Shown: piece after piece, positions 548-9,775 of the stretch | Layout of the letters: each line of letters opens with the position of its first letter | Position numbering within the stretch: the first letter of the stretch is position 1 | Source: an uncultured Eubacteriales bacterium | Lineage (GTDB): Bacteria; Bacillota; Clostridia; Peptostreptococcales; Anaerovoracaceae | NCBI GenBank assembly: GCA_902766185.1 | Contig: CACXCQ010000292.1 | Span: 1-9,775, forward strand | DNA length: 9,775 nt | Reading direction: 5' to 3' | The notes under the pieces: generated by a model | What the model was told of the DNA's origin: nothing | Seen by the model: only the letters and a program-made list of their open reading frames with translations | The model's database searches: none | Made by a program: the position numbers and the translations under genes

Positions 548-576
548 TGGGAAAACCACCAAAAAAAGTGTATAAT
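548..576 (+). promoter_or_regulatory. Predicted promoter of the FHA-ABC/kinase operon
   Basis: A perfect -10 hexamer TATAAT lies at 571-576, preceded by GTG. The -35 position 17 nt upstream (548-553) reads TGGGAA, a poor match, so the promoter may depend on the near-extended -10 or an activator. The AT-rich run at 561-580 stands out against the GC-rich surroundings. It would give a leader of about 60 nt before the ATG at 644. It is the only convincing promoter-like element seen upstream of the six co-directional genes. Confidence 0.55.
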
Positions 577-643: not shown

Positions 644-3073
644 ATGATCAGCACTTTTGACAGAGAACAGACCGGAAGCCAGATGCGTCCGACCCTGATC
701 GTCATCGACGGATCCGGCGAACCGAGAGAATATGAGTGCGCTGCCTTTGGCGGAAACGCCATCCGGCTGGGCCGCAAGGCAGACAACAACGACATCATCA
801 TCCCGGAAAAGTTCGTATCATCCCGGCATGCGACGATTTATGAAGATAACGGCCGGTATTTTTATTGTGATGAGAACAGCTCCAACGGAAGTTACGTGAC
901 CACGTCCTCCAGGACCCGCCAGCTGAAGGAGACCGGGGAGATCGTGGAGCTGAGCAACAACTCCGTGATCCGCATCGGCAGCCTGCAGGATCCGAACCGG
1001 CGGGTGGTGATCTGGTTCTCCTACATGCGGGAGGGCGAGCGCCTGACCCGGTGGGACCTGAAACAGGAACGGATCACCATCGGACGGGACAGCCGAAACG
1101 ACATCGTGCTTCCCCACCCCAGCGTGTCCAGGACCCACGCCACCGTGCTGCGGCAGGGGGACAGGTTCAGCATCGTGGACAACCGGAGCATGAACGGGAT
1201 CCTGCTCAACGGAGAGAAACTGAACCAGCAGAGCACGCTCTGCGACAAGGACATCATCCAGATATCCGGTTTTCAGCTCATCTTCTCCGGGGACAGCATA
1301 TACTACAAAAACAGGCTCAGCGGCATCGGCATCACCGCCCGCAACATCAACAAGATCGTGGGCAGCGGCAAAGGCAGGAAACAGATCCTCCGCAACGCCG
1401 ACGTGGAGATCAAGGCCAACGAGTTCGTGGCCATCATCGGCGGAAGCGGCGCCGGCAAGTCCACCATCATGAACGTGCTGAACGGCTTCGACCTGAACTA
1501 TACCGGAGAAGTTTTTTATAACAACATCAGCCTGAAGGAGAACTTCCAGCAGATCAAGGGCATCATCGGCTATGTTCCTCAGGAGGACATCATCTACGAG
1601 AACCTGACTTTGCGCCGGATGCTCCAGTATACCGCAAAGCTGCGGATGCCGGCAGACGCGACGAAGGACGAGATCGAGGAACACATCGATGAAGTTCTGC
1701 AGACACTGGATCTGCAGGAGCACCAGAACACCCTGATCCGGAAGCTGTCCGGCGGGCAGAAGAAACGGGCGAGCATCGCCGTGGAACTGCTGGCGGACCC
1801 GAAGCTGTTCTTCCTGGACGAGCCCACATCCGGGCTGGATCCGGGAACGGAGAAGAACCTGATGATCGCCATGCGGGACCTTTGCCGGCAGCAGCAGAGG
1901 ACCATCGTCATGGTTACCCATACCACCCAGAGCCTGCACCTTTGCGATAAGGTGATCTTCATGGGACCCGGGGGCAGAGTCTGCTTCGCGGGGAACGTGG
2001 AGGAGGCCAAGGGATTCTTTGAAAACGACGATCTGACGGAGATCTATAACATCATCGCCGCGGACCCGGAAAAATGGGAGCGGAAGTTCAGACAGAGAAA
2101 CCGCCGGTCGGTCACCGGAAGCGGCGCGCAGGCGGATCCGGCGAAGTACCAGAGGACCAGGGTGTCCGCGCTGAAGCAGTTCGCCACCCTGACGCAGCGG
2201 TACACGGAGCTGATGACCAACGACCGCAGGAAGCTTTTGATCCTCCTGCTGGAACCGATCGTGATCGGGCTGCTGCTCTTCGTGGTGTCGGGAGAGCACA
2301 TCTTCGACGTGTTCTCGGTCGCCATGAACGATGGAGACCCCCCGAAGGCGATCGCGATGCTGGCCTATTCGGACACGAAGTCCATGATGTTCACCCTGAG
2401 CTGCGCGGCCATCTGGATCGGGTTGTTCAATTCCATCCAGGAGATCTGCAAAGAGCGCAGCATCCTGAAGCGGGAATACATGGCGAATCTGCGCCTGCCG
2501 GTGTACATGGGATCCAAGGTGGGCGTGCAGGCCGTGATCGGACTGATCCAGGCGATCCTCCTTTCGGAGACGTTCCTGCTTTTGGCACAGCACATGATGA
2601 AGAGCGACCGGGATCCGCAGGTGCTGTTCCCGGGTTCGATCCAGACCCTCGGAGGATGGGCGGTCACCACCGAGATCATTCTCACCGTGTGGCTCACCAT
2701 CATCGCGTCCATGGCGCTGGGGCTCATCGTGTCCGCGATAGTGAAGACCGGGGACAAGGCCATGGTGGTGGCGCCATTCCTGCTGATCGTTCAGCTGCTG
2801 TTCTCCGGAATACTTTTTGAACTGAAGGGGATCAGCGAGAGGATCGCCGATCTGACCGTCAGCAAATGGTCGGTGGACTGCCTTTGCACCATCGCCAACA
2901 TCGGAAACATCGACAGCGATCTGCACCCATCGCAGAGCGAGAAGGACAAGGGGATGTTCATCTGGGATCCTCACACCCTGACCCAGGACTGGGTCGTGCT
3001 GCTGGTGATGGCCGCCGTCTGCATCGTGATCAGCACCATCGTGCTGCGCAGCGTGGCGAAGGACGGCCGCTAG
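644..3073 (+). CDS. Tandem-FHA ABC exporter half-transporter (Rv1747-like architecture)
   Basis: This 809-residue protein is a phospho-regulated ABC exporter subunit with the nucleotide-binding domain ahead of the membrane domain, as in ABCG/ABC-2 transporters. It has FHA domain 1 (about 17-112; G43-R44, S59, H62, N81-G82), FHA domain 2 (about 125-215; G147-R148, S162-R163, H165, N184-G185) and an ATPase domain (about 230-475). The ATPase has Walker A (266-274), an LSGGQ signature (368-372), Walker B with D392-E393 and an H-loop H426. Six predicted membrane segments follow at about 531-548, 582-600, 626-649, 678-700, 706-725 and 783-805. Both FHA domains keep the phospho-threonine-binding residues and all ATPase motifs are intact. 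It probably works as a dimer. The layout matches mycobacterial Rv1747 (about 865 residues), whose activity is linked to the kinase PknF. A kinase and a PP2C phosphatase lie in the same operon. The start is uncertain: ATG 644 has no clear ribosome binding site, while ATG 683 (M14) has a weak GGAAG 4 nt upstream. Neither choice affects FHA1. The substrate is unknown. Confidence 0.93.
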   Translation: MISTFDREQTGSQMRPTLIVIDGSGEPREYECAAFGGNAIRLGRKADNNDIIIPEKFVSSRHATIYEDNGRYFYCDENSSNGSYVTTSSRTRQLKETGEIVELSNNSVIRIGSLQDPNRRVVIWFSYMREGERLTRWDLKQERITIGRDSRNDIVLPHPSVSRTHATVLRQGDRFSIVDNRSMNGILLNGEKLNQQSTLCDKDIIQISGFQLIFSGDSIYYKNRLSGIGITARNINKIVGSGKGRKQILRNADVEIKANEFVAIIGGSGAGKSTIMNVLNGFDLNYTGEVFYNNISLKENFQQIKGIIGYVPQEDIIYENLTLRRMLQYTAKLRMPADATKDEIEEHIDEVLQTLDLQEHQNTLIRKLSGGQKKRASIAVELLADPKLFFLDEPTSGLDPGTEKNLMIAMRDLCRQQQRTIVMVTHTTQSLHLCDKVIFMGPGGRVCFAGNVEEAKGFFENDDLTEIYNIIAADPEKWERKFRQRNRRSVTGSGAQADPAKYQRTRVSALKQFATLTQRYTELMTNDRRKLLILLLEPIVIGLLLFVVSGEHIFDVFSVAMNDGDPPKAIAMLAYSDTKSMMFTLSCAAIWIGLFNSIQEICKERSILKREYMANLRLPVYMGSKVGVQAVIGLIQAILLSETFLLLAQHMMKSDRDPQVLFPGSIQTLGGWAVTTEIILTVWLTIIASMALGLIVSAIVKTGDKAMVVAPFLLIVQLLFSGILFELKGISERIADLTVSKWSVDCLCTIANIGNIDSDLHPSQSEKDKGMFIWDPHTLTQDWVVLLVMAAVCIVISTIVLRSVAKDGR

Positions 3074-3118
3074 GCGCGGCAGGCGCGCGGACAGGAGCCC
3101 GGGCAAGAGGAAGATAAC

Positions 3119-3910
3119 ATGAAAGCAACACCGCTGATCATATTAATACCCTGCATTCTGGCGCTGGGGATACTGTTCTGGGTGGACAGTCCCCAGGAGG
3201 CGGCGACCCCGAATAAAACGGAGTCGCAGGCCGCCGGAGAGCAGACCCCGGAGGACGGCGCGCTGATCCTCCAGCTTGTGGTGGGACAGGCGGGCTCTTT
3301 GGAAAACGACATCGGAAACCCGGTGTACTCCGCCCCGGACGAGACCGCTGAGCAGGCGGGCACCCTGCAGTACAACTGCTGCATGCTGCAGGCGGAGGAG
3401 GAAGCGCCGGAAGGATGGATCAGCGTAGAGCTTTCCGACGGGTCCACGGGATATGTGCAGAGCCAGAGCGTTCTGCTGAAGACCCTGACCGTCTCCGACC
3501 AGGACCCGCTTCGCATGGAGATCGCCCGAGACGCGGTGCAGTATCTGGGCCTTCGCTTCAAGCGGTACGGAGACTCCCTGAACAGCGGCATCGACTGCTC
3601 CCACTTCGTGGAGCAGATCTATGCGCGCAACGGAAGGGACATCCCGGAGACCTGCAACGAGATGATCGCGGAGGGGACGGCGATCCCGGTTTCCGACGCC
3701 CGGACAGGAGACATCATCTACTATGACGTGAACGACGGCTACGGCCACGTGGGCATCTATCTCGGGGGCGGCTATCTGATCAACGCCACCGGCCACGCGG
3801 GGAGAACGTATCCGGATGGCGGCGTGCGGATCTGCGCGCTGAAATACAGAGACAGAGAGGTTCCCCAGGCCTACGATTTGCTGGATGCACAGCAGGACGA
3901 ACAGCAGTAA
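3119..3910 (+). CDS. Membrane-anchored SH3-like + NlpC/P60 cell-wall hydrolase
   Basis: This 263-residue exported protein is a putative peptidoglycan-peptide hydrolase (NlpC/P60 cysteine peptidase). It has an N-terminal hydrophobic signal anchor (about 5-22) without a good lipobox or signal-peptidase site, a polar linker (24-47), a bacterial SH3-like domain (about 49-122) and a C-terminal NlpC/P60 domain (about 130-255). Catalytic Cys160 lies in a DCSH motif where the family usually has DCSG. His210 lies in GHVGIYLG, and Asn222 sits 12 residues after it at the third polar position, which is His in many members, giving a C-H-N triad. A strong AAGAGG (3105-3110) is 8 nt before the ATG. It follows the exporter gene by 45 nt and ends 14 nt before the acyltransferase gene. 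The family assignment is good. Whether it cuts wall peptides or acts on the exported product is unknown. Confidence 0.88.
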   Translation: MKATPLIILIPCILALGILFWVDSPQEAATPNKTESQAAGEQTPEDGALILQLVVGQAGSLENDIGNPVYSAPDETAEQAGTLQYNCCMLQAEEEAPEGWISVELSDGSTGYVQSQSVLLKTLTVSDQDPLRMEIARDAVQYLGLRFKRYGDSLNSGIDCSHFVEQIYARNGRDIPETCNEMIAEGTAIPVSDARTGDIIYYDVNDGYGHVGIYLGGGYLINATGHAGRTYPDGGVRICALKYRDREVPQAYDLLDAQQDEQQ

Positions 3911-3924
3911 AGACGGAGAAGAAT

Positions 3925-4941
3925 ATGGGAGAGAGAAGAATCGCAAAATGGGATAACCTGAAATTCTGGATGATCCTTTGCGTGGTGACGGGGCACGTTC
4001 TGTACGAGTTCACCGGCACCAGCATGCAGGCATCTGCCCTGTACCTGTTCATCTACTCTTTTCATATGCCGGTGTTCATGTTCGTGGCGGGACTGTTTTC
4101 GAAGCACGCGGTGCGGGAGCATCGCCACGAGCTCATCATCAACTATCTGCTGATCTACATCATCATGAAATTCCTGGAGGCGGTGGGCAGCTGGCTGGCA
4201 GACGGGTCCTTCACCTTCCACTTCCTGTGGGAGAGCGGCCCGGCCTGGTTTGCCCTGGCTTTGGCCGTGTTCCTGACGGCCACCATGATCCTGCAGCGAT
4301 ACGACCGGAACTGCATTCTGGCGGCGGCGCTGCTGATCGGATGCCTGGCCGGACTGGACACCCACTTCGGCGACCACTTCGCCTCCATGCGGATATGCGT
4401 ATTTTACCCCGTATTTCTGGCGGGATTCTATCTGGATCCGGAGCGGCTGAGCATGAAGCGGCTCGAAGCGGGGAAGCGCGCGGTGCTGCGGATCGCGGCG
4501 CTGCTGATCCTGGCGGGCTGGTTCTATTACTGCATGTTCGTCCTGAAGGACTCGGTCCGGCTGCTGCGGATGTTCAAGGGAAAATACGAGTATCAGGATA
4601 TGGATATGGGCATGGAAGGCGTGATCTTACGGCTGGCCTGCTATGCTTTCTGGGCGCTGCTGATCGCCGTGATGGTGATCTTGGTCAGCGAAAAAGAGAG
4701 GATCTACACGTGGGTCGGCAAGCGGTCCATGGCGATCTTCATCTGGCACCCGCTGATCATCGATGTGGTGATGTCGGTGATCGGCGTCAGGCTTCTGCTG
4801 ATGCGGGAGCTTCCGGCGTTTTACGTCATCGGCGCGATCTGCGTGGCGGTGATCATCACCGTTCTGGCGGCCTACCTGCCGGAGTTTCGGATCGCGCAAA
4901 GGCTGGCACAAGGCAAAACAAAAAAAGAGAAGAGGGGTTAG
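3925..4941 (+). CDS. Acyltransferase-3 family integral membrane protein
   Basis: This 338-residue polytopic protein has about ten hydrophobic segments and resembles acyltransferase family 3 (OafA/Fuc4NAc-acyltransferase type), which moves acyl groups, often O-acetyl, across or at the membrane onto cell-surface glycans. It starts with the family's characteristic W9-D-N-L-K13 element. The K13-X10-H24 spacing matches the conserved R/K-X10-H signature, and a SFHMPVFMFVAGLF stretch follows (about 45-58). The C-terminal end has a WHPLII element and a basic tail. The start is set by GGAG at 3915-3918, 6 nt before the ATG. It lies between the NlpC/P60 gene and the kinase gene (3-nt gap), so it is very probably co-transcribed with them. 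Acceptor and acyl donor are unknown. Modification of the exporter's cargo or of wall glycan is inference. Confidence 0.85.
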   Translation: MGERRIAKWDNLKFWMILCVVTGHVLYEFTGTSMQASALYLFIYSFHMPVFMFVAGLFSKHAVREHRHELIINYLLIYIIMKFLEAVGSWLADGSFTFHFLWESGPAWFALALAVFLTATMILQRYDRNCILAAALLIGCLAGLDTHFGDHFASMRICVFYPVFLAGFYLDPERLSMKRLEAGKRAVLRIAALLILAGWFYYCMFVLKDSVRLLRMFKGKYEYQDMDMGMEGVILRLACYAFWALLIAVMVILVSEKERIYTWVGKRSMAIFIWHPLIIDVVMSVIGVRLLLMRELPAFYVIGAICVAVIITVLAAYLPEFRIAQRLAQGKTKKEKRG

Positions 4942-4944
4942 CGA

Positions 4945-7068
4945 ATGGACAGCGCAGCGAAGAGAAAAGAACTGGAAAAAAAAGAGCCCTTGTTCGGGGC
5001 ATGGCATATCGTGGACTTCATCGGAGCGGGAAGCTTCGGCCAGGTTTTTGAGATCCAGCGGGAGGAATTCGGCCGCACATACCGTTCGGTGCTGAAGGTC
5101 ATCTCCATCCCCCAGAGCGAGGAGGACGTGAAGATGATGCTGACGGAGGGCACGGATATGTCCTCGGTCTCCTCCTACTACGACGATCTGATGGCCTCCA
5201 TCGTGGAGGAGAACGCCATCATGTTCGAACTACGGGGCAACACCAACATCGTCAGCTATGAGGACCACACCGTGATCCCCCACGACGACGGGATCGGCTA
5301 CGATGTTCTGATCCGCATGGAGAAGCTCACGCCGCTGATCGATACTCTCCTGGAGAAGGAGATGACGGAGAAGGACGTGCTGAAGCTGGGAGCGGATCTC
5401 TGCCAGGCGCTGATCATCTGCCAGAAGAAGAACATCATCCACCGGGACATCAAGCCCGCCAACATCTTCATCTCCGATACGGGAGACTACAAGCTGGGGG
5501 ACTTCGGCATCGCTCGGACCATCGAAAACGCCACATCGGAGCTGTCGAAGAAGGGCACCTTCGCCTACATGGCACCCGAAGTGTACCAGGGGAAGAGCTA
5601 CGGCGCAAAGGCAGATATCTACTCTCTCGGCGTCGTCATGTACCACATGCTGAACTACAACCGTGCGCCGTTCCTTCCGGCGCCGCCGCAGCCGATCACC
5701 GCGTCCATGAAGGAAGACGCCCGGCAGCGGAGACTCTTCGGCGATCCGCTTCCGAAACCGGCCAAGGCCAGCCAGATCATGAGCAGGATCATCCTGAAGG
5801 CCTGCGCCTACCGGCCGGAGGACCGCTATGAAACGGCGGCGGAGATGCGCAAGGACCTGATCGCGCTTCAGCGCGGAGAGCTGGATAAGATCACCGCGAT
5901 GGCGGAGACCGAAGCGGAGAAGGAGACGCGCGAGGATCTTGAAGACCGCACGGAGCTGCTGACGGATGTGGGACTTCAGGGAAAGGCCGCAGCCGACGGC
6001 GCATCGCGGGAGGTGCCCCGTTCCGGCCAGACCACCGATCCGGAGCCGGAAGATGTCCCTTGGTATCAGAGGGGCAGCACGCCTCATCAGGAGAAAACGG
6101 CGACGGAAGACCTGAACCGCACCGTTCCGGACACCGGACACGACGGCCGTTCAGGAGGGCAGAGCCGCTCAGGAGGACAGGGACGCACCGCCGGAGACGG
6201 CGGACAGACGAGAAGGAAACCTGCGCCCGCGCCAAAGGCAGCGCCCCAGCCGCGGTGGAAGATCATCGCCCTGACGGCGGCCATCGTCATCGTCTTCGGC
6301 TTCGCGGGATTCATGATCCAGCAGCACCTCCGGACAGGGGGCGGCGACAGCGCGGAGCAGCAGAACGGCGGAGCAGCAAACACAGAGCTGACCCTGGAGG
6401 ATCTGAAGATCAAAGACTTCGACGTGAACTTCAGTCAGATCGACCAGCAGGACAACGAGATCCTGGAGGACCAGACGAACATGTCCTTTGAGGACAACGG
6501 CGTCGATGTTCTGATGAAGATCAAGAACAAGGGCAGCAAGCCGCTGAAACAGGTGAAGTTCAGCATGACCATCGACGGCGGGAAGGTCCGGAACCTGGAT
6601 AAGGACAACGAGGTATTTACGGCCTCCGGCTACATCAAGGGCGGAAAGACCGGATACATGTGCGCGAAGGCGAAAATCTCCAACGATTACTGGGATGACC
6701 ATCCCAACACGGAGCTGGAACTGATCGAGATCCCGGACGGCGGCAGCGGTTATGTGGACGGCAATACAGAGTACGAGCTGCAGCACGGCACCATGGAAGA
6801 CCGTAGCGAGAAGAGCGACACCTACGCCTTCCGGCTGAACGGGAAAAGCGACCGGGAGATCCATAAGGGCGCGTACCTGGTGGCCATCAATAAGGACAAG
6901 GACAAGGGACTGGCGGAATACTGGGCCGGCGGCCAGCTCGATGAGTCCGTTGACGAAGGCGAAAAATGCTACATGAAAAAGGCCTTCTACAACCCCGGCC
7001 TGAAGGATTCGGACCCGGATGATTACGACGTGCTGGTCATCGATCCCATCGCGATCATGGGACAGTAA
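4945..7068 (+). CDS. Transmembrane Hanks-type Ser/Thr protein kinase with non-PASTA extracytoplasmic domain
   Basis: This 707-residue receptor-like kinase has a cytoplasmic catalytic domain at about 18-310. The glycine loop is GAGSFGQV (27-34), the likely ATP lysine is K51, the catalytic loop is HRDIKPAN (166-173), DFG is at 186-188, and GTFAYMAPE closes the activation segment (204-212). It is an RD kinase with T192, T197, S198, S201 and T205 in the activation segment. The spacer between the ATP lysine and helix C looks longer than in PknB. A polar, Thr/Pro/Gly-rich linker (about 315-437) includes two SGGQ units and a basic PAPAPK patch. A single membrane helix (440-458) is followed by about 250 acidic extracytoplasmic residues (459-707). 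These show no PASTA repeats and begin with a beta-rich stretch that may be FxLYD-like. AGAGGGG (4931-4937) precedes the ATG, which starts 3 nt after the acyltransferase stop. It probably phosphorylates the FHA exporter or an adaptor for it. The PP2C gene follows 28 nt downstream. Confidence 0.94.
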   Translation: MDSAAKRKELEKKEPLFGAWHIVDFIGAGSFGQVFEIQREEFGRTYRSVLKVISIPQSEEDVKMMLTEGTDMSSVSSYYDDLMASIVEENAIMFELRGNTNIVSYEDHTVIPHDDGIGYDVLIRMEKLTPLIDTLLEKEMTEKDVLKLGADLCQALIICQKKNIIHRDIKPANIFISDTGDYKLGDFGIARTIENATSELSKKGTFAYMAPEVYQGKSYGAKADIYSLGVVMYHMLNYNRAPFLPAPPQPITASMKEDARQRRLFGDPLPKPAKASQIMSRIILKACAYRPEDRYETAAEMRKDLIALQRGELDKITAMAETEAEKETREDLEDRTELLTDVGLQGKAAADGASREVPRSGQTTDPEPEDVPWYQRGSTPHQEKTATEDLNRTVPDTGHDGRSGGQSRSGGQGRTAGDGGQTRRKPAPAPKAAPQPRWKIIALTAAIVIVFGFAGFMIQQHLRTGGGDSAEQQNGGAANTELTLEDLKIKDFDVNFSQIDQQDNEILEDQTNMSFEDNGVDVLMKIKNKGSKPLKQVKFSMTIDGGKVRNLDKDNEVFTASGYIKGGKTGYMCAKAKISNDYWDDHPNTELELIEIPDGGSGYVDGNTEYELQHGTMEDRSEKSDTYAFRLNGKSDREIHKGAYLVAINKDKDKGLAEYWAGGQLDESVDEGEKCYMKKAFYNPGLKDSDPDDYDVLVIDPIAIMGQ

Positions 7069-7096
7069 AGGCGGCAGCAGGCTTCGAGGAAACGAT

Positions 7097-7819
7097 ATGA
7101 GAATCGATTACGGATGGAAAACGAGCGCCGGAAAGATCCGCTCCCAGAACGAAGACAGCCTCTTCGCCGGAAACCGCGTCTTCGCCGTCTTCGATGGCAT
7201 GGGCGGCGCCAGCTACGGCGAGGTGGCGTCCCTTCTGGCCACGCAGACGCTGGAGGTGTTCGCGGAGCACGACAAGCTGGCCTGCGGTGGTCCGGAGCTG
7301 GAGGAGGCGCTTGGGGATTACATCACCATCGCCAACGACATCATCTGTGAGGAAATGCGGCAGCGCAGCGTCAGCAGCATGGGAGCCGCGGCGGCTGTGC
7401 TCGTCCTGCATGAGGACCGGGCGTCGATCTGCAACCTCGGGGATTGCCGTATATACCGGCAGGATGGATCCGGGCTGAACCAGCTCTCCTGCGATGACCG
7501 GACGAAGGCGCCCATGCACAGCGGCACCGTCCTGACCCAGCATCTGGGCGTGCCCCGGGAGGAGTTTCTGCTGGAGCCGCACATCGTCACCGACATGGAC
7601 GCGCAACCGGGCCAGATCTTCCTGCTGTGCAGCGACGGCCTGACGGACATGCTGCAGGAGGAGAAGATACGGGAGATCATCCAAAGGCTGGCCGGATCGC
7701 CGGCGCAGAAGATAGCGGACGCCCTGGTGGAAGCTGCCCTGGAGAGCGGCGGCCGGGACAACGTGACCGCGCTGATCGTGAAGTTGGACGAGAATCTTGA
7801 AGCTACGGAGGGAAAGTAA
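7097..7819 (+). CDS. PP2C-family (PPM) Ser/Thr protein phosphatase
   Basis: This 240-residue soluble Mn/Mg-dependent phosphatase is the expected antagonist of the upstream kinase. Family motifs appear in order: N18-E19-D20, DGMGG (33-37, metal-binding Asp33), a GDCR element in the centre, SDGLTD (179-184, metal-binding Asp180) and GRDNVT (219-224, Asp221). The length is typical of a single-domain bacterial PP2C such as Stp/PrpC. The frame is open further upstream, but the ATG at 7097 is chosen because GAGGAA lies at 7085-7090 and the PP2C fold begins directly at its first residues. The stop overlaps the next gene's start (TAATG), implying translational coupling. It probably dephosphorylates the kinase, the FHA-ABC exporter, or both. 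Confidence 0.94.
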   Translation: MRIDYGWKTSAGKIRSQNEDSLFAGNRVFAVFDGMGGASYGEVASLLATQTLEVFAEHDKLACGGPELEEALGDYITIANDIICEEMRQRSVSSMGAAAAVLVLHEDRASICNLGDCRIYRQDGSGLNQLSCDDRTKAPMHSGTVLTQHLGVPREEFLLEPHIVTDMDAQPGQIFLLCSDGLTDMLQEEKIREIIQRLAGSPAQKIADALVEAALESGGRDNVTALIVKLDENLEATEGK

Positions 7820-8637
7820 TGTATTGTTCGCACTGCGGAGAAGAACTCAGAGAAGGGGTCAGGTTTTGCGAAAACTGCGGCAGCCCGGTGCCGGAAAAGG
7901 ATGGGCAGGACAGAGCGCCTTCCGGAAAAAAGAAGGCGCTGATCGCAGGCATCGTCGCGGCAGTCCTCCTTGCGGCGGGGATCGGTGTGATGGTGGGACA
8001 AAAGACGGGAGATGATTCTGCGGGAACGGATGGCGAAGCCCAGACCCAGGCACAGACAGAGGCCCCGGTCAACGCAGCGGCGGATATACCCGAAGACTAC
8101 TACGACCCGGACGAATACGATTTCTCCGCCGTTACCGTAGGCGGACTGTCCCAGTATGAGATGGATAACGTTCTGGATGTGGTGACCGCGTACACCGACG
8201 CGAAGGATAAGAAAAAGATCGGGCAGATGGAACTCAACGCGGCAGCGGAAGAAAGCTCTGTGGTGATCGCCCGCATCCTGGATCCGATCCGGACAGAGGA
8301 CAGGGATAACCGGTCATACGCGGTGTTTCCGATGGATGAGGTGAACCGGCTGCTCTCCTTCTTCACCATGTTCCAGTACGAACCGGACTCCACGTACCTG
8401 AACGGGACCGCCTTCACCGAGGGCAACGAGCTTTGGATCGCGCAGGGTATCGGATGGGAGCAGAGCAGCAGAACCACCTCTGTCGGTTCCTCCGAAGAAG
8501 AGATCGGCCTGGATTATCACACGGTGGAATCCTACGGTCCGGACGCAGCGCACACCACGTACTATCACGCCACCCTGCGCCCGAACGACAAGGGAAGGTT
8601 CTACCTGTACAGCATCGAGTACGTGGATGAGGAATAA
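7819..8637 (+). CDS. Zinc-ribbon single-pass membrane protein with unknown extracytoplasmic domain
   Basis: This 272-residue protein has an N-terminal zinc ribbon (C3-x2-C6 ... C17-x2-C20), a short basic linker, one membrane helix (about 41-60) and a Gln/Thr/Ala-rich tether (about 62-90). A C-terminal domain (about 95-272) rich in acidic and aromatic residues follows and I do not recognise it. By charge the ribbon should be cytoplasmic and the large domain outside. The ATG overlaps the PP2C stop by 1 nt, and GGAGGG (7807-7812) is its ribosome binding site. As last gene of the operon it may be an adaptor or co-sensor for the kinase/exporter. Zinc-ribbon membrane proteins of this shape are common beside regulatory genes in Firmicutes, but no specific function can be given. 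Confidence 0.85.
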   Translation: MYCSHCGEELREGVRFCENCGSPVPEKDGQDRAPSGKKKALIAGIVAAVLLAAGIGVMVGQKTGDDSAGTDGEAQTQAQTEAPVNAAADIPEDYYDPDEYDFSAVTVGGLSQYEMDNVLDVVTAYTDAKDKKKIGQMELNAAAEESSVVIARILDPIRTEDRDNRSYAVFPMDEVNRLLSFFTMFQYEPDSTYLNGTAFTEGNELWIAQGIGWEQSSRTTSVGSSEEEIGLDYHTVESYGPDAAHTTYYHATLRPNDKGRFYLYSIEYVDEE

Positions 8638-8656: not shown

Positions 8657-8679
8657 AAAACCCCGCGCCGCGGGGTTTT
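8657..8679. terminator. Intrinsic, probably bidirectional terminator
   Basis: A perfect 10-bp stem AAAACCCCGC (8657-8666) pairs with GCGGGGTTTT (8670-8679) around a GCC loop. On the plus strand it is followed by GTTG, and on the minus strand by more U residues (complement of 8651-8656). It lies between the convergent operon (ending 8637) and the lipoprotein gene (ending 8689), so it can stop transcription from both sides. Confidence 0.9.
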
Positions 8680-8688
8680 GTTGTGCCG

Positions 8689-9498
8689 CTACCGTGCCGG
8701 AATGACCTCGTTCGCTGATCCGCCGCCGGCCGGGAAATGCTTCTTTACGACCACGTCCAGAAGGCCCATATCGTGAAGAACGAATTTGATGGTCCCGTCG
8801 CTGACGGAGGACTCATATTCTTCGATGCTTTGCTCGATATAGCTGTCGATATCCGGCGCATCAGAGAAATCTTTGAGCGTGGATTCTCGGATGTTTTCCT
8901 TTACGGTCTCGCCGGCTTCCTCAACCGTGGTCCCCGCGATCGCGCAGGCCTCCTCATAGTTCAGAAGGTGCCCGTCATCCCGGCTGAAGGAGTAGGCATA
9001 GTAGTCGTGGGAAGGCACATCCGTTCCGCCTGACGTTTGCGTGACCAGAACGGACACCGCATCATCCAGAACGTACGCATCGTAATCGGACACGGAATAG
9101 CCGCTGTTCCCGTACTCATCGGACATGCGCGCGCACTCGTTGAAGCTGTCGATCAGCTCCCCGTAGAGGCCGTAGAGCTCCTCGTTGGCCGCCCTGGCGT
9201 CCGGAGAGTCGATGTTGATGTACGGAACGACCAGATCGGAGACCTGATACAGTTCATTGAAGGATGTGTAGCTGTCGACCTCCGCAGGGATGTCATAGTC
9301 CGCGTCGAAGACCCAGGGCTTATCGCTGAACTCCTTCAGGGCATCGGCGCCGGCATCTCCGCCGTCGGCCTCCGCCTGCGTCGCGGCGCCGCTGTCACCG
9401 CCGTCACCGCCGGAAGATCCGCAGCCGCAGATCAGCGCCATCATTGCCGCCATCATCAGGATCAATGCGAAAGATAAAATGATTCTTTGTGCTTTCAT
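8689..9498 (-). CDS. Lipoprotein with possible RsiV/DUF3298-like C-terminal region
   Basis: This 269-residue protein has a lipoprotein signal peptide: K2 and R5, a hydrophobic core at about 6-23 and a lipobox ending I-C-G-C26. Lipid-modified Cys26 is followed by a Gly/Ser/Asp/Ala-rich tether (about 27-52). The rest is acidic. The stretch with 'YSFSRDDGHLLNYEEA' and a following amphipathic 'ETVKENI' segment resembles the pattern of DUF3298 domains found in RsiV-type anti-sigma factors and related surface lipoproteins, but this is only a pattern impression. The start has AGGAG (complement of 9509-9513) about 10 nt upstream. It is divergent from a sigma-factor gene and convergent with the kinase operon. 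It acts on the outer face of the membrane; its ligand is unknown. Confidence 0.8.
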   Translation of the reverse strand: MKAQRIILSFALILMMAAMMALICGCGSSGGDGGDSGAATQAEADGGDAGADALKEFSDKPWVFDADYDIPAEVDSYTSFNELYQVSDLVVPYINIDSPDARAANEELYGLYGELIDSFNECARMSDEYGNSGYSVSDYDAYVLDDAVSVLVTQTSGGTDVPSHDYYAYSFSRDDGHLLNYEEACAIAGTTVEEAGETVKENIRESTLKDFSDAPDIDSYIEQSIEEYESSVSDGTIKFVLHDMGLLDVVVKKHFPAGGGSANEVIPAR

Positions 9499-9679: not shown

Positions 9680-9775
9680 ATGAGCACCCAGTCTGAAAAA
9701 CTGTTTCAGGAGATCTACGAAGACTACTACCAGAAGGTCCTCGCCTACATCCGCGCCCGCGTGAATGATACCTAC
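9680..9775 (+). CDS. RNA polymerase sigma factor, sigma-70/ECF-like (partial, N-terminal 32 codons)
   Basis: Only the first 32 residues are inside the window. They begin MSTQSEKLFQEIYEDYYQKV and continue LAYIRARVNDTY. This pattern, an aromatic/acidic helix followed by 'V..YI..RV.D...', is that of sigma region 2.1 in ECF and related small sigma factors. GGAG (9668-9671) lies 8 nt before the ATG, and a good promoter lies upstream. The rest of the gene and any anti-sigma partner are past the right edge. It is divergent from a lipoprotein gene. Confidence 0.75.
   Translation, partial: MSTQSEKLFQEIYEDYYQKVLAYIRARVNDTY

Follow-up and report, generated by a model that had tools for sequence, protein, structure and literature searches.

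An FHA-bearing ABCG-type exporter beside a transmembrane Ser/Thr kinase in an uncultured Eubacteriales bacterium: the architecture and likely the logic of Rv1747/PknF, with a candidate docking motif on the kinase tether

In mycobacteria, the exporter Rv1747, in which two FHA domains precede a nucleotide-binding domain (NBD) and a transmembrane domain (TMD), is encoded beside the transmembrane kinase PknF, and the phosphatase PstP reverses the phosphorylation (PMC9312465, PMC5549992, PMC3908365). Here we analyse a 9775-base stretch of DNA, termed the window, which is contig C292 of the draft genome G000 (83% complete, 6% contamination) of an uncultured Eubacteriales bacterium. Six consecutive genes on its + strand (644..8637) encode an FHA-bearing ABC exporter, an NlpC/P60 hydrolase, an acyltransferase-3 protein, a Ser/Thr kinase, a PP2C phosphatase and a zinc-ribbon protein. 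The locus displays the architecture and likely the logic of Rv1747/PknF, with what is likely a different docking site and with different neighbours. The reading we prefer, to which we give almost an even chance, is that the FHA pair of the exporter docks on phosphothreonines of the disordered tether of the kinase, such that a signal from outside likely gates export and PP2C resets the system. The elements concerned are as follows.

644..3073, + strand: FHA-FHA-ABC exporter (ABCG-type half-transporter), 809 residues (open reading frame, Pfam and structural model)
764..979, + strand: FHA domain 1 of the exporter, residues 41-112
1076..1267, + strand: FHA domain 2 of the exporter, residues 145-208
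1388..1831, + strand: NBD of the exporter, residues 249-396 (Pfam and motifs)
2177..2836, + strand: ABC2-type membrane domain of the exporter, residues 512-731 (Pfam and model)
3119..3910, + strand: NlpC/P60 hydrolase; its single hydrophobic segment may serve as anchor or signal, and SH3b matches weakly
3925..4941, + strand: acyltransferase-3 membrane protein, about eight hydrophobic segments by hydropathy
4945..7068, + strand: transmembrane Ser/Thr kinase, 707 residues (open reading frame, Pfam and model)
5005..5838, + strand: kinase domain, residues 21-298, catalytic residues intact
5917..6249, + strand: disordered juxtamembrane tether of the kinase, residues 325-435 (from pLDDT)
5944..5967, + strand: proposed phospho-docking motif DRTELLTD (Thr336)
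6115..6138, + strand: second conserved Thr motif NRTVPDTG (Thr393)
6259..6330, + strand: transmembrane helix of the kinase, residues 439-462
6382..7065, + strand: predicted extracytoplasmic beta-rich domain of the kinase (model), no Pfam match
7097..7819, + strand: PP2C phosphatase, 240 residues
7819..8637, + strand: zinc-ribbon protein with one hydrophobic segment

The genes are separated by gaps of 45, 14, 3, 28 and -1 bases, taking 7097 as the chosen start of the PP2C gene (the mechanical open reading frame starts at 7019). In Pfam the first gene matches two FHA domains, ABC_tran and ABC2_membrane, and those that follow match NlpC/P60, acyltransferase-3, protein kinase, PP2C and a zinc ribbon. 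Thus open reading frames and Pfam agree with an earlier, sequence-only reading of the window, which had recognised these six families, their tight spacing and the intact phosphothreonine-binding and ATPase motifs of the exporter. That reading had also called the circuit self-contained, a description that the data do not establish, since G000 contains three further kinase matches and another PP2C.

The exporter presents the chain order of Rv1747, with two N-terminal FHA domains, NBD and ABC2 membrane domain, and the residues expected to contact phosphothreonine (pThr) are intact in both FHA domains (R44/S59/H62/N81-G82 and R148/S162/H165/N184-G185), completing the GR, SxxH and NG signatures. 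Its ATPase motifs are also intact, comprising Walker A (GGSGAGKST), the signature LSGGQKKR, Walker B (LFFLDEPTSGLD) and the H-loop. The predicted model, where pLDDT falls below 50 only at residues 1-11, 488-503, 560-562 and 654-661, matches the fold of ABCG-type NBD-TMD half-transporters; domain order and predicted fold resemble those of ABCG2, ABCG1 and ABCG16, from which the window exporter differs by its two N-terminal FHA domains. In contrast with Rv1747, it has no disordered inter-FHA linker for the kinase to phosphorylate, the 32-residue stretch between the two domains being modelled as folded (pLDDT 83-87), and the locus is therefore termed a variant that would work like Rv1747. Further differences from the mycobacterial system are the phosphatase gene within the same run, the additional wall hydrolase and acyltransferase genes, and a conserved TELL motif on the kinase tether (Rv1747 itself was not aligned). 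A protein search returned 6709 homologues at E <= 1e-30 among 7999 scored candidates, and the 120 listed contain FHA, ABC_tran and ABC2_membrane with conserved FHA pockets. The nearest named matches among those listed are P0006 ("Firmicutes bacterium", 66%), P0016 ("Bacillota bacterium", 58%) and P0095 (Schaedlerella, 49%), and the actinobacterial relatives fetched are ~29-30% identical to the exporter. The chain is split in more distant relatives, with one gene for the FHA-FHA-ATPase and another for the membrane part (L065 9014-11394, L075 347-2706, L076 9251-11679).

The kinase retains the motifs GAGSFG, K51, HRD and DFG, and its activation loop contains a Thr. No PASTA domain was matched by Pfam, and the score against the PASTA-kinase (PrkC/PknB) model NF033483 of NCBIfam was 140.7 bits, under the cut-off of 450. 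Low pLDDT (< 50) at residues 325-379 and 381-435 delimits a disordered stretch of ~110 residues between the kinase domain and the membrane helix; all 50 structure matches listed for the whole model fall on the kinase domain. In StkP-type kinases, Thr phosphorylation in a juxtamembrane tether favours recruitment of a partner (PMC12077195); the window kinase differs from StkP by the lack of a PASTA domain and by its proposed partner, an FHA exporter. The PP2C protein (PF13672, 2.4e-16) displays intact FDGMGG, CSDGL and GGRDN motifs, including the metal-binding Asp residues known from Stp1/PrpC, and scores 135.8 bits against NF033484, under its cut-off of 230. The NlpC protein contains Cys160, His210 and His226, which we take to be its catalytic residues, and the zinc-ribbon protein has its four Cys.

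The tether of the kinase provides one of two observations that suggest the proposed docking. Thr336, within DRTELLTD, is a Thr in 20 of 22 rows of the kinase alignment (rows P0122 and P0177 dropped) and is the most conserved of 111 tether columns. The motif was first spotted by eye in neighbouring kinases and counted afterwards. When 120 kinase homologues were reduced to 106 non-redundant tethers (14 were redundant or under 12 residues), TE[LIVM][LIVM] occurred in 13 of them with 20 matches, against 1.4 in shuffled tethers and a maximum of 5 in 300 trials, while the Ser form was found in 0 of the 106, though Ser is as common there as Thr (788 vs 727). A similar result was obtained with the proteins encoded in the fetched loci (680 non-redundant of 725, after removal of 45 near-duplicates), where TE[LIVM][LIM] outside recognised domains was carried by 18 of the 98 proteins that are kinases or other FHA proteins vs 30 of 516 other proteins (p 1.3e-4), and its Ser form was not enriched (3/98 vs 29/516). 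Zinc-ribbon proteins (4/35 with the motif), exporters (0/21) and housekeeping-type kinases (0/10) stood as classes outside this comparison. Four of the 18 matches are doubtful, being an exporter with one recognised FHA (L072), two lying outside the tether (L126, L086) and one at an FHA edge (L044); without them the count is 14/97 (p 0.005). FHA domains have a high specificity for phosphothreonine (PMC3146460), and therefore a Thr-only motif in a disordered stretch near FHA genes has the expected look of a docking site.

The motif was located in kinase tethers of L039, L077, L078, L081, L085, L088 and L089 (the last a locus of G000 itself); in L040, L041, L042, L081, L082 and L084 it flanks, on one side or the other, the FHA domain of small FHA and zinc-ribbon-FHA proteins. 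By kinase class, it was present in 6 of 26 kinases with FHA genes within 4 kb, in 1 of 29 without and in 0 of 20 of housekeeping type; this count leaves out two G784 kinases that nearly duplicate those of G020, and the FHA distance in L085 (2.1 kb) was set by hand. The 20 control kinases were so classed on the basis of being top-scoring, of ~580-615 residues and adjoining a PP2C gene in nearly every genome, PASTA domains not having been scanned in them. The second motif, written as [RKE]T[VI][LP]D, matches the kinases of the window and of L078 and four further proteins that have no kinase domain, and it was thus used for aligned homologues only. Matches of the RTIVMVTHTT type, which nine exporters have in their own ATPase strand, were discounted because that part is structured. 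Among the literature matches listed, judged by title and the start of the abstract, none concerns a Bacillota exporter locus of this type or the TELL motif, the motif string itself not having been searched.

Adjacency of exporter and kinase is well kept within the genus. An exporter with both FHA domains is encoded in 10 of 49 genus genomes (the end of an exporter gene also borders a contig of G784, which is placed with the 39 that lack it), and a kinase lies within 10 kb on the same contig in nine of the ten, in eight of them within ~2 kb; in G000 it stands 1.9 kb downstream. In the tenth genome the exporter contig spans 9 kb, with a PP2C fragment at its end. Both distance limits used here (4 kb and 10 kb) were set after the loci had been seen. 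Each of the ten exporter genomes contains 2 to 8 kinase matches, and 16 of the other 39 contain two or more. At class level, 11 loci were retrieved, with a kinase on the fetched stretch in six and none in five.

The state of the FHA pockets was then compared with the presence of a kinase, the pThr-contact residues being read from an automatic alignment of the exporters of 23 loci. Where a kinase was present on the fetched stretch (n=17; G013 included, its kinase lying one stretch further along the contig), both FHA domains retained the phosphate-contacting Arg and Ser in 16, G755 being the exception; Ser replaces Asn184 in G782 and G288. Of five loci with no kinase, one retained intact pockets (G501), the Ser and Asn of the second FHA were gone in G630 and G719, and both pockets were gone in G713 and G534. 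G006 and G1189 were excluded from the pocket counts because their contigs measure 9 and 6 kb. A second sample, for which the prediction was fixed beforehand, comprised 11 loci; two came from genomes, and the others were cyanobacterial or actinobacterial plasmid loci (nine fetched of the 20 matches listed, from at least 5000 records). It revealed intact pockets in 5/5 with kinase and 2/5 without; in the latter group three Nostocales have a single eroded FHA, and G1066 and a Mycolicibacterium plasmid are intact. Both samples pooled (32 loci) give 21/22 with kinase vs 3/10 without (p 3e-4). The phosphothreonine link between kinase and exporter that the sequence-only reading had proposed is thus supported by the proximity of the kinase, by pockets conserved in the listed homologues and by pocket loss that occurs mostly where no kinase is near.

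In the proposed sequence of events, the beta-rich outer domain of the kinase would bind a signal, which would promote autophosphorylation of the tether at Thr336 and perhaps at Thr393. FHA1/FHA2 of the exporter would then bind phosphorylated Thr336, with Thr393 perhaps providing a second foothold, and docking would hold the ATPase by the kinase and change export, probably through activation rather than inhibition of the ATPase. PP2C, encoded in the same gene run, would take the phosphates off the tether. The cargo is presumably a lipid-linked or other amphipathic envelope molecule, the NlpC/P60 and acyltransferase proteins may remodel the wall or a surface molecule at the place of export, and the zinc-ribbon protein is a putative adaptor. 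In related loci some copies of the motif lie on small FHA or zinc-ribbon-FHA proteins, so either the kinase or an adaptor may supply the docking site. More tentatively, and with appreciably less confidence than for the window itself, these data may reflect a general phosphothreonine docking code of Bacillota (acidic-basic-T-E-L/I-L, with a second site T-V/I-L/P-D) placed on kinase tethers and zinc-ribbon/FHA adaptors, which would hold FHA-bearing export machines; in the window, two tether sites and two FHA domains would form a bidentate latch, making the kinase a regulatory subunit of the ABCG exporter.

To our knowledge, how a bacterial Ser/Thr kinase finds its exporter is an open question even for Rv1747. 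The tether motif is short enough to be made as a phosphopeptide, which opens docking to direct testing, and it also indicates partners at further loci in related bacteria. A kinase that switches an exporter via its phosphorylated tether would be a simple gate for export to the cell surface and, if this is true, pocket retention or loss would provide a rule telling which FHA exporters are kinase-controlled.

Several observations weigh against docking of the exporter on the tether. The second site is less conserved than Thr336 (NRTVPDTG, RTVLDTGQF in others; T in 13/19). Tethers of the exporter-adjacent kinases lack the motif in L041, L042, L043, L044 and L064, although in the first two a small FHA protein bears it. 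It is likewise absent from the class-level kinases (L066-L069, L075 and L076), loci in which the motif count also gave no match. Related kinases and proteins were counted in the motif comparisons, and these tests are not independent. As for the pockets, whose residues were taken from automatic alignments, the second sample by itself gives p 0.17, counting related loci once reduces the association to 11/12 vs 3/6 (p 0.08), and G755 has a kinase yet an eroded second FHA; the trend between pocket and kinase is clear, and independent losses are few. Moreover, the docking model of M. ulcerans PknQ-MupFHA places the FHA domain at Ser170/Thr174 of the kinase activation loop and not at the juxtamembrane part (PMC4238996). 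By analogy, the exporter FHA domains could dock on the phosphorylated activation loop and the tether motif serve something else. This fits the activation-loop Thr of the window kinase and the fact that kinases with short tethers also adjoin the exporter, but it leaves unexplained a Thr-only tether motif that is shared with FHA proteins, and we judge it rather unlikely. A somewhat less improbable option, still unlikely, is that the tether motif attracts different FHA proteins in the cell (candidates in G000 are a TIR-FHA protein encoded on contig C75 and an FHA protein on C320), and that the exporter reads a different phosphoprotein, for instance an adaptor. The presence of the motif on small FHA and zinc-ribbon-FHA proteins of other loci agrees with this option; however, the exporter is the only FHA protein of the window, and pocket erosion is found mostly where the kinase is not near.

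Self-clustering of the Rv1747 type, where the kinase would phosphorylate the exporter and the FHA domains bind pThr of neighbouring copies in the membrane, has a precedent in Rv1747 residues 1-310, which condense upon phosphorylation by PknF, an effect that PstP reverses (PMC9312465). There, however, the FHA domains are joined by a disordered linker, in contrast with the spacer modelled above as folded, and such clustering is quite unlikely here. That the genes stand together by chance or for shared expression only, with no control of the exporter by the kinase, would agree with a six-gene order that is not conserved and with the five class-level loci showing no kinase; the adjacency within the genus and the association of pockets with kinases argue against it and make it improbable.

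Membership of a T7SS (type VII secretion system) subtype has also been considered. T7SSe/f/j (TsxC, TsxD, TsxF, TsxJ) share with the window a PPM phosphatase and FHA proteins, T7SSe/j further have a membrane kinase and, on the ATPase of the machine, an FHA domain with conserved pThr motif, T7SSc-j loci often encode kinases, phosphatases and FHA proteins, and T7SSc-j clusters are mostly found in Bacillota (PMC11217815). In contrast, the window encodes an ABC exporter as its machine. On the basis of score and frame length, EssC-like matches occur in only G017, G005 and G786 of the 49 genus genomes, and 9 of 10 exporter genomes, G000 included, show FtsK/SpoIIIE-like, weak or no matches, several of these genomes being incomplete; G019 has a weak EssC-like match in a long frame. 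No multi-NTPase ATPase of EssC/TsxC type was found in G000, whose incompleteness makes a missing gene possible. Membership is thus disfavoured and very improbable, and, with no EssC-type ATPase recovered from nine of the ten exporter genomes, one and the same phosphothreonine toolkit seems to be attached to a different machine. Among the parallels drawn by the sequence-only reading, Rv1747/PknF stands by architecture, while PpkA-Fha-PppA of type VI secretion, where a kinase, a phosphatase and an FHA protein also gate an export machine (see PMC3953482), is only a loose one and T7SSe/j is nearer (PMC11217815). Elsewhere in the genus, 1-12000 of L087 (G017:C32) encodes an EssC-like ATPase fragment, FHA proteins and PP2C, perhaps a T7SS variant; the FHA-ABC locus is present in this genome as well.

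In wider samples, the exporter was found in 9/393 (order), 12/392 (class) and 2/398 (phylum) genomes, G000 itself included each time (E <= 1e-60; phylum 1e-50). A genome-contig search with the exporter gave two loci with matches confined to residues 227-471, the ATPase part, and neighbourhoods were therefore drawn from other genome sets, with one new genome added via the phylum search and another via a family search around G579. Envelope enzymes vary beside the exporter. An NlpC orthologue (E <= 1e-25) is present only in G000 and G017 of the 49 genus genomes, and the acyltransferase (E <= 1e-20) in the same two plus a remote match in G031 (24% identity). Both adjoin the exporter in one of the 48 other genus genomes, G017, in the order PP2C, kinase, PASTA protein, exporter, small FHA, NlpC, acyltransferase. 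The co-occurrence search thus gave no backing to the earlier suggestion of a system made up of the six families in the order seen here, and a fixed six-gene set was rejected. L039 has a dissimilar acyltransferase and a transglutaminase-like protein nearby, and an acyltransferase (L078), an amidase (L065) or an M23 peptidase ~4 kb away (L043) is found elsewhere. Around the exporter, other relatives encode zinc-ribbon proteins, TPR kinases and one kinase with leucine-rich repeats, together with fusion proteins that join FHA to a TIR, von Willebrand A, trypsin-like or DUF4234 domain. As kinase adjacency is kept and neighbouring envelope enzymes change, the constant core within the genus consists of exporter and kinase, to which further FHA, PP2C or zinc-ribbon genes are often added. 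A different kinase expansion is seen in the genus genome G031, with seven kinase and four PP2C matches and no FHA-ABC exporter.

From their spacing, the six genes probably form one transcript, and the promoter scan detected no promoter-like site on the + strand inside them. Two + strand terminator-like patterns lie within genes, at 4408-4424 (acyltransferase) and 5021-5039 (kinase). Scan totals are near those of shuffled sequence (2 promoters vs 3.0 +/- 1.7; 11 terminators vs 7.4 +/- 3.4). The run is flanked by two further elements.

571..576, + strand: TATAAT, a possible -10 box 68 bases 5' of the first gene, with no -35 match (read from the sequence; the promoter scan does not list it)
8657..8679, strand not assigned: terminator-like hairpin of 10 pairs, listed on the minus strand, between the last gene and a converging gene

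Upstream, on the opposite strand, lies a gene with a PAP2 match in Pfam. The converging gene (8689-9498, minus strand) encodes a 269-residue protein with a lipoprotein-like start by eye and no Pfam or NCBIfam match at E 0.01, and a reading frame starting at 9680-9775 (+ strand), cut by the contig end, resembles an ECF sigma factor by eye.

Other FHA-rich loci were observed in the same genomes and in relatives. L067 (11153-18774) contains FHA-von Willebrand A, trypsin-like protease and DUF4234 fusions in a run with a kinase and two PP2C, beside an FHA-ABC exporter. Kinase, zinc-ribbon, PP2C and vWA neighbours are described for other conflict systems in PMC7159879, the excerpts of which do not include the FHA exporter. 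L049 (G000:C75, 1-4931) encodes a TIR-FHA-like protein, a STAS protein, the end of an NHLM-like exporter ABC protein and zinc-ribbon proteins; the TIR-FHA/STAS/exporter set lies directly beside the FHA-ABC exporter in G013 and G020, and one kinase gene away in G011 and G783. In G020, two contigs, L041 (17215-18423) and L088 (13195-14001), break off inside an exporter ABC gene that appears to be one and the same (residues 277-677 and 1-267 of the seed, respectively), which suggests one large locus for phospho-signalling and peptide export.

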